From Candidatus Thalassarchaeum sp. (lineage in GTDB: Archaea; Thermoplasmatota; Poseidoniia; Poseidoniales; Thalassarchaeaceae), in the NCBI GenBank assembly GCA_022449945.1, contig JAKURM010000010.1, forward strand, positions 1-34,605: 34,605 nucleotides of DNA, written 5' to 3'. Every line of letters starts with the position of its first letter. Position 1 is the first letter of the stretch. This document shows, one piece after another, positions 22,530 to 25,008 of the stretch. The notes beneath the pieces are model-generated. The model was not told the origin of the DNA. It was given only the letters and a program-made list of their open reading frames with translations, and made no database searches. Position numbers and translations under genes: made by a program.

Positions 22530-23108
22530 TCAATCTTCAGATGGAACTTCCTCACCGGTCCACCTCTTTCCAAGTGTGTGGTCGATATCCAATTGGTCCA
22601 GAATCCTTGCCACTACGAAATCAACCATGTCATCTATTGATTCAGGTGCGTGGTAGAAGCCTGGGCTAGCTGGAAGGATGACTACTCCCCATTCCGAAAG
22701 ATTGGCCATAGCCTTCAGGTGGGGGGTCGAGTAGGGGGCCTCTCTTGGTACAAGGATTAGCTTCCTCCTCTCCTTCATTGCAACTAGCGCACTTCTAGTA
22801 GCAAGGTTGTCGCTAATCCCGGCTGCGATCTTGCCTATGGTCGTTCCACTGGCAGGGCAAACTACGTATGCATCGAATCTAGCAGATCCCGATGCCGCCC
22901 TTGCAGCAAGGTTTCCATTATCCTCCAGTCTAACTCCTTCTCGCACTAGTTCAGATGGGGCGATCCCACACTCAAGGTCTAGGTTTATCGCCCCTGAGCT
23001 CGTAACAATCAGATTAACCTCCCAACCATGTTCAATCAATGCACCGACGAGCCTTACTCCGTACTTAGCACCCGATGCTCCGGTGATTGCCACCACTGCC
23101 TCAGGCAT
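22530..23108 (-). CDS. ubiX: flavin prenyltransferase UbiX
   Basis: UbiX makes prenylated FMN, the cofactor of UbiD-type decarboxylases. The 192 residues show the family signatures: AITGASGAKYGVRLVG (FMN phosphate site), VTSSGAINLDLE, CPASGTTIGKIAAGISDNL, and VPREAPYSTPHLKAM, followed by ILPASPGFYHAP. The length is typical. No UbiD gene is visible in this window. It lies 41 nt downstream of the distal end of the interrupted aminotransferase frame, on the same strand, and may be its operon partner. The start ATG 23108 follows the family N terminus well. Confidence 0.95.
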   Translation of the reverse strand: MPEAVVAITGASGAKYGVRLVGALIEHGWEVNLIVTSSGAINLDLECGIAPSELVREGVRLEDNGNLAARAASGSARFDAYVVCPASGTTIGKIAAGISDNLATRSALVAMKERRKLILVPREAPYSTPHLKAMANLSEWGVVILPASPGFYHAPESIDDMVDFVVARILDQLDIDHTLGKRWTGEEVPSED

Positions 23109-23149
23109 GATTGCCCGGCCCTACTTCTGCCCTTCAATGGTTGCTTTCT

Positions 23150-23341
23150 TCAGAGGCTGTCTCGCAATGCCCATGCGAGGAATTTGTACTCATCGACATG
23201 GTTGTACAACTGTGCTGAGATCCTGATGTATCTTTTCCCATGGTGCCGCCATGGGAAAACCGGGACCTGGATTCCGTATTCGTCCAGGAGGAAGTTATGG
23301 TAAGGGTCTCCCTCCAAGCTCATTGCACCGACCTCGCCCTC
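23150..23341 (-). pseudogene. C-terminal tail of the class V aminotransferase, beyond an in-frame TGA
   Basis: After the TGA at 23342-23344 the same frame stays open for 63 codons to a second TGA at 23150-23152. The tail reads as the missing C-terminal end of the enzyme: LEGDPYHNFLLDEYGIQVPV followed by YIRISAQLYNHVDEYKFLAW. The GIQVPV and RISAQLYN blocks are the standard end of isopenicillin N epimerase-like aminotransferases. With the tail the protein would be 396 residues, the normal length; without it, 332. The simplest reading is a nonsense mutation or a base error at the TGA, with readthrough the alternative. A restart at the internal ATG nine codons before LEGDPY would give only a fragment. 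Confidence 0.75.
23233..23259 (-). repeat. perfect 11-bp hairpin inside the aminotransferase tail
   Basis: TTTTCCCATGG and CCATGGGAAAA are perfect inverted copies around a five-base loop. On the minus strand the hairpin begins 82 nt after the in-frame TGA and lies within the codons for VFPWRHHGK. No T-run follows on either strand, so a simple intrinsic terminator is not indicated. It is the strongest perfect inverted repeat I noticed in the window. Confidence 0.6.
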
Positions 23342-24340
23342 TCAGGCCATCTCCACTGCTGCAATTGACGAAACCATTGACTCCGGTACCGGAGGTATAG
23401 TCCCCAGTGCCTCGCAAACTATTCCCCTCCCCTCAATGGCAAGATTCCGATTCCTCTCCATTATCTCCGACCAGCCGCCTTCCACGAGTCCACCGATGAA
23501 TTCGAGGGCCTTGGGGATGCAAAGCCAGGGGGTCGGGTCTTGCGTACCAGGCCAGGCAAACTCGTAGTCGAACCTCTCCTGGTCACTTCCTTCGTGAGTT
23601 GCCCCATGGCTAATGCTTAGGGGCCTAATACCGCTCTTCCTGTCGCTCCTGATGTGCAGGAAGGCGGAACCCTTGGGCGTGCAAATCCACTTGTGGCAAT
23701 TTCCCGTACAGTAGGCGACTCCCAGCTCAGTTAGATCCAGGGGGACGATGCCCGGCCCATGTGCTGCGTCTAGAAGCACGTCAACTCCTTTAGATTGTAG
23801 TTCGGACACCAGAACCTCGAAGGGCATCCTCACTCCCGTGGGGCTTGTCACTGTGTCGATAAGTGCCAGAACTGTGCGTTCTGTCACCGCACCCAAAACC
23901 GCGTCTATAATTTCCAATTCGCCCTCCACTCTGAAGGGAATGTCGACAACTACCGTCCTCGCCCCAGATCTGGAAGTGACGAAGTCCACTGCGTTCCAGC
24001 AAGCTTGGTAACAGTGATTTGGTACGATTATCTCGTCTCCAGGTTTAAGATCTAGGCTTCTTAGAACCGTGTTTACCCCTTCAGTCGCATTCTTGACGAA
24101 AGCCATCCCGTGAGGGTCAGCATTGAGGAACCCACATAGGGCATCCCTGGAAACTTCCAGCTTCCCGATGAAGTCCCTCTCGAAGAATCTCACCGGGTCC
24201 CTCTCGATTTGTAGCCTTATTCTGCTCTGCTCCTCCAATACTACTTTGGGAGTGGCCCCAAATGAACCGTGGTTGAGGAATGTAACGCTTGAGTCCAACG
24301 GCCAGTGCTCGGCCAGTTCAGACCTCCGAGGCCTTTTCAT
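23342..24340 (-). CDS. class V aminotransferase (isopenicillin N epimerase-like), truncated by an in-frame TGA
   Basis: This is a PLP-dependent enzyme of the class V / cysteine-desulfurase-like fold. Visible motifs are VTFLNHGSFGATP at the N terminus, ATEGVNTVLRSL, the PLP aspartate in VLLDAAHGPG (about 187-196), and the Schiff-base lysine in CTGNCHKWICTPKG (Lys217), then SHGATHEG. Its substrate is not evident; homologues include epimerases, desulfurases and aminotransferases. The frame stops at TGA 23342-23344, removing the C-terminal domain end that family members need; the missing part continues in frame to 23150. ATG 24340 overlaps the lipB stop as ATGA, the usual sign of coupling. ATG 24361 is a longer option. 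Confidence 0.85.
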   Translation of the reverse strand: MKRPRRSELAEHWPLDSSVTFLNHGSFGATPKVVLEEQSRIRLQIERDPVRFFERDFIGKLEVSRDALCGFLNADPHGMAFVKNATEGVNTVLRSLDLKPGDEIIVPNHCYQACWNAVDFVTSRSGARTVVVDIPFRVEGELEIIDAVLGAVTERTVLALIDTVTSPTGVRMPFEVLVSELQSKGVDVLLDAAHGPGIVPLDLTELGVAYCTGNCHKWICTPKGSAFLHIRSDRKSGIRPLSISHGATHEGSDQERFDYEFAWPGTQDPTPWLCIPKALEFIGGLVEGGWSEIMERNRNLAIEGRGIVCEALGTIPPVPESMVSSIAAVEMA

Positions 24341-25008
24341 GCGAGAATCCCCGGAGTCCATTCCACGGGCTCGCCCGGACTTCTTCCCAGATGCTTCTCA
24401 CAATGCTTTAGCAAGCCAGACTCTATCCTGCCGAGGTCGATTTTGTTTCCTTCGGTATCCGAAACGTATCCGAGCCTTGCTAGGCTTGTATGGATGCCGG
24501 GCTTCATCCCGCAACCCTCTAGTTCCTCTACCCTGCTTCCAGGAGTATCTATGTTAATTGACATCCCGTGACGACTAACCCAATGGAGGAATGAAAGCCC
24601 TATTGAGCAGATCTTGTGCCCGTCCACCCAGGCCCCCTGCATGGCTTCGTCTTTGTAAGCCGCAATGCCACAGTCCGAGAGCGCTTCTATCGCCCAGTCT
24701 TCCAGTTTCCCGATTATCCCTCTGACGCTCTGCTCCTCAATATTCCACTTTACAATTGGGTAGACGACCAGTTGACCGGGTCCATGCCAGGTAATCCCGC
24801 CCCCTCTGTCTGTGTTCGAGGTGGGGTATCCTTGGACCGACACGCCATCTCTTACTGCCTTCGGCCCTATGGTGACCACTGCAGGGTGCTCGACGAAGAT
24901 GAGCGTATCCTGAATCTCGCCTGCAATCCTCTTCTGCTGCAAATCCTTCATCGACTGAGCCATTGTACTGTGATCAACCAAACCCGATCTGAGGATGCTA
25001 ATCTCCAT
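24337..25008 (-). CDS. lipB: octanoyltransferase LipB
   Basis: LipB moves octanoyl from acyl carrier protein to the lipoyl-domain lysine, the first step of de novo lipoylation. The 223 residues show EHPAVVTIGP, DRGGGITWHGPGQLVVYPI (the conserved RGG-x-x-T-x-H-GPGQ block), the catalytic lysine in GHKICSIGLS, and the catalytic cysteine in EGCGMKPGIHTSL. The cofactor fits the 2-oxoacid dehydrogenase genes just upstream. A GAGG Shine-Dalgarno sequence overlapping the E3 stop lies 7 nt before ATG 25008. LipB is more typical of bacteria; many archaea use lipoate ligases instead, so transfer is plausible. Confidence 0.95.
   Translation of the reverse strand: MEISILRSGLVDHSTMAQSMKDLQQKRIAGEIQDTLIFVEHPAVVTIGPKAVRDGVSVQGYPTSNTDRGGGITWHGPGQLVVYPIVKWNIEEQSVRGIIGKLEDWAIEALSDCGIAAYKDEAMQGAWVDGHKICSIGLSFLHWVSRHGMSINIDTPGSRVEELEGCGMKPGIHTSLARLGYVSDTEGNKIDLGRIESGLLKHCEKHLGRSPGEPVEWTPGILA

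Follow-up and report, generated by a model that had tools for sequence, protein, structure and literature searches.

A class V aminotransferase-like gene interrupted by TGA

We found that the in-frame TGA of a class V aminotransferase-fold gene in a Candidatus Thalassarchaeum genome is very probably a private, non-conserved lesion, either a very recent nonsense mutation in the population or a consensus/base-call error. Such a private TGA would stem from a recent nonsense change or a sequence error by which two adjacent codons were altered. The window, that is, the whole stretch of DNA analysed (34,605 nucleotides), is an entire contig (C2) of an assembly of 1.34 Mb in 112 contigs, which is 88% complete.

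Translation of window positions 24340..23150 gives a minus-strand frame that runs from 24340 for 332 residues up to the TGA at 23342-23344. The same frame then continues for 63 residues and ends at a normal TGA stop at 23150-23152. Over its full length this tail can be aligned with intact orthologues (residues 1-396; 90% and 85% identity for the two closest relatives) and is therefore the genuine C-terminus that the open part lacks, not an ORF that arose by chance. Translation and alignment thus confirmed the preliminary description, in which a TGA interrupts a class V aminotransferase gene whose C-terminal end is intact in the same frame and the 63 codons after it form the family ending. The features of the locus are as follows.

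23345..24340, minus strand: class V aminotransferase-fold gene, uninterrupted portion encoding residues 1-332 (translation; Pfam Aminotran_5, 83 bits; tblastn to relatives)
23345..23347, minus strand: neighbouring codon, the second component of the lesion: GCC (Ala) here, CCN (Pro) in close relatives
23342..23344, minus strand: the in-frame TGA, at which the two closest relatives have GGA (Gly) and the others various sense codons
23150..23341, minus strand: tail in the same frame (63 codons, then the normal TGA stop), which is homologous to the C-terminal end of intact orthologues and contains an invariant Arg (residue 373)
23231..23263 (approximate), minus strand: stretch that can fold into a hairpin and codes for VFPWRHHGK; relatives lacking the TGA have it as well
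24337-25008: upstream gene, which we take to be lipB-like
22530-23108: ubiX-like gene, next after the aminotransferase gene

The lipB-like gene overlaps the start of the aminotransferase gene by ATGA. Throughout the window segment 22530-25008, the genes are separated by very short gaps or overlap, and nearly all Poseidoniales relatives read keep the same succession of lipB-like, class V aminotransferase-like and ubiX-like genes. The conserved order and the tight spacing suggest that the three genes are co-transcribed.

A Pfam search placed the gene product in Aminotran_5 with 83 bits, and the closest solved structures to the sequence of an intact relative are those of Egt2/hercynylcysteine sulfoxide lyases (PDB 5UTS and 5V12, E 8.5e-38). 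The gene shares with Egt2 the class V aminotransferase fold and a conserved arginine of the C-terminal tail, which aligns. It differs from it in scoring far under the 400-bit cut-off of the EgtE model (NCBIfam TIGR04343), with 29.4 bits for the window fragment and 33.9 bits for an intact relative. Its scores are also far below the cut-offs of the named NCBIfam enzymes. On this basis, the gene appears to encode a normally 396-residue, Egt2/C-S-lyase-like protein of class V aminotransferase fold in the Thalassarchaeaceae (Poseidoniales).

In Egt2 and cystathionine beta-lyases, a conserved arginine anchors the substrate carboxylate (PMC11794154). The arginine of the lost tail, Arg373, is invariant in 78 of 78 relatives, and its counterpart in a HMMER alignment to the 5UTS chain is Arg445; we infer that it may be the substrate-anchoring arginine. 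If the TGA is real, translation would end after residue 332 and the C-terminal 64 residues would be missing, the invariant arginine among them. As the lost tail carries this residue, the truncated 332-residue product would probably be inactive. A search for a second intact copy of the gene in the genome found none.

Codon at the site in related genomes

The preliminary description had called for a comparison of the codon in orthologues. A scan of GTDB contigs yielded 80 relative loci, 78 of which read across the site. All 78, including the two closest congeners, have a sense codon at the position of the TGA. Within the genus, some match to the protein was found in 27 of the 28 genomes (the window's genome counted), and the orthologues covering the site are all uninterrupted. 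Intact orthologues occupy the same locus in the relatives, with the lipB-like and ubiX-like neighbours kept. Since none of the relatives read over the site carries a stop, the stop is private to the window's assembly. The comparison puts an end to the idea that recoding is conserved here, so that a mutation or an error is left. Of the options first proposed (mutation, base-call error, readthrough or recoding), these two therefore stand, while readthrough and recoding are unsupported.

The window reads ATG GCC TGA GAG at this place, where JASMLH010000003.1 (Candidatus Thalassarchaeaceae, 90% identical) reads ATG CCG GGA GAT and PBOL01000015.1 (85% identical) reads ATG CCC GGA AAC. Most close relatives have Pro-Gly here (ATG CCG GGA or ATG CCC GGA). 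CGA had been named as an example of the sense codon to be expected in relatives; the closest ones carry GGA (Gly) instead. Position 333 lies in a variable loop (a loop position had been proposed); its commonest residues among the 78 relatives include G (20), T (15), W (8) and E (6).

Taken literally, the earlier statement that a single substitution would restore a normal protein holds. Compared with its relatives, though, the window departs twice: the codon just before the TGA is GCC (Ala), against CCN (Pro) in the close ones. GCC TGA can be derived from CCC GGA by two substitutions; it can also be derived from CCT GGA by one inserted and one deleted G, i.e. by compensating slips. Whichever route was taken, the lesion is a small cluster of two changes. 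In a search for a template-switch donor, allowing up to one mismatch, the core word was found in the window at the site itself only.

Constraint on the tail and readthrough

Compared with one relative (G022), dN/dS is 0.088 over the first 331 codons and 0.096 over the tail. Only four changes in the tail are specific to the window, two of them at third positions. The tail thus shows no sign of decay and is constrained like the rest of the gene, so that the stop is either very recent or not real.

An undecayed tail is also expected under persistent readthrough, in which a real TGA would be decoded by a near-cognate or suppressor tRNA to give the full-length enzyme. Nearly every residue that might be inserted would be tolerated at this variable loop position. 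Three observations argue against this explanation, which we consider very improbable: no relative has a stop at the site; no tRNA with a UCA anticodon was found among the tRNAs of the 1.0 Mb of sequence read, which make up about three quarters of the genome and include 27 kb of N; and the other lesions of the assembly, described below, are TAG, TAA and a deletion, hence not specific to TGA. A TGA that is real, fixed in the species and usefully read through by a mechanism other than selenocysteine insertion is less probable still. The gene was also rejected as one with programmed stop-codon readthrough, as the stop is not conserved and all relatives read have a sense codon. Real readthrough of this TGA would be notable for this archaeal group; nothing that we found points there.

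A reassigned genetic code was rejected as well. TGA is not avoided in this genome: it is the commonest ordinary stop, ending 349 of 679 ORFs (at least 120 aa, 0.89 Mb of genome), a share about the same as in two relatives. This confirms the earlier view that TGA is used here as an ordinary stop.

Selenocysteine and the downstream hairpin

The combination of an in-frame TGA, a conserved tail and a downstream hairpin is what would be seen if selenocysteine were inserted at the TGA under the direction of that hairpin. The search for tRNA-Sec in the genome (88% complete) gave only matches below the cut-off, the best at 36.6 bits versus 47, which we read as ordinary tRNAs. The selenophosphate synthetase SelD was found in none of 28 genus genomes, i.e. 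the window's genome and 27 congeners. An Rfam search with E up to 1 over positions 22900-24400 gave no match to the Rfam models, which do not amount to a dedicated archaeal SECIS model. Neither Cys nor a stop occurs at position 333, a variable loop position, in the relatives tabulated. The preliminary description had judged selenocysteine unlikely and had seen no Sec machinery, in line with these results. Selenocysteine insertion is already close to refuted, and we regard it as the least probable of all the explanations considered.

The strong hairpin pointed out downstream of the TGA does exist. Its arms, TTTTCCCATGG...CCATGGGAAAA, fall within the codons for VFPWRHHGK, and it is almost unchanged in two relatives that bear GGA at the site. 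As a recoding signal it was rejected, and it provides no evidence for recoding, because intact relatives without the TGA have the same hairpin; it is a by-product of the coding sequence and cannot be a signal specific to the TGA.

Archaeal selenoprotein genes, in which UGA is recoded, e.g. in Asgard archaea (PMC9723677), resemble the window gene in the in-frame TGA, the conserved sequence after it and the downstream hairpin. They differ from it in that no Sec machinery was found in the window's genome, that no Cys homologues of the gene occur among the relatives read, and that its hairpin is shared by genes without the TGA.

Eight codons past the TGA there is an in-frame ATG, preceded by a purine-rich GAGGT. 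The gene could thus have been split in two, its 332-residue first part assembling in trans with a C-terminal fragment whose translation restarts at this ATG. In the two closest relatives with an intact gene, the ATG and the GAGGT occur too, as part of the coding sequence, and so neither is an adaptation; a split gene is found in none of the relatives. We give this arrangement very little credence.

Other lesions in the same assembly

Four other genes of the assembly are disrupted and are intact in relatives. In a large gene of the FtsX-family permeases (contig C54, L179:600-3983), TAC of a relative is changed to TAG at residue 376 (of 1209), within an alignment of 93% identity. A GDPD-family gene (contig C24, L149:8630-9739) is 89% identical except in a span of about 20 bases, where changes occur in a burst and create a TAA. 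In a PAC2-family gene (contig C1, about 44.45-45.19 kb, L126:4452-5191), a 22-nt deletion near 44.7 kb shifts the frame, and two relatives have the gene intact. Finally, in a TSP3-repeat gene (contig C44, L169:10297-10884), an in-frame codon about 60 bases short of the contig end is TAG, as against AAG in a relative.

Many of the stops that the scan for lesions seemed to show belonged to antisense or upstream shadow ORFs; these were removed on inspection. After this triage by eye, lesions numbered 5 of 318 in the window's assembly versus 1 of 222 in relatives, an excess that is not significant (p = 0.41). In relative G022, a gene on contig C11 (L209:2921-4145) has a one-base frameshift near codon 331; the same gene is intact in the window's genome.

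The burst of changes in the GDPD-family gene and the stop near a contig end in the TSP3-repeat gene look more like consensus errors than evolution. For this reason we lean slightly towards a consensus/base-call error over a real nonsense mutation as the origin of the TGA.

Significance

Recoding, selenocysteine insertion and programmed readthrough are all unsupported. The window gene resembles a young pseudogene or a consensus error in a metagenome-assembled genome in its single private in-frame stop and undecayed tail, in that all relatives have an intact orthologue at this locus, and in the other lesions of the same assembly. The sole difference is that two adjacent codons are altered. A literature search on stop codons as errors in such assemblies found nothing. 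The phenomenon is ordinary. Its import hardly goes beyond annotation: in this assembly, the gene deserves a flag as disrupted or doubtful. The lesson is that an in-frame stop, a conserved tail and a nearby hairpin together mimic recoding until relatives are aligned.
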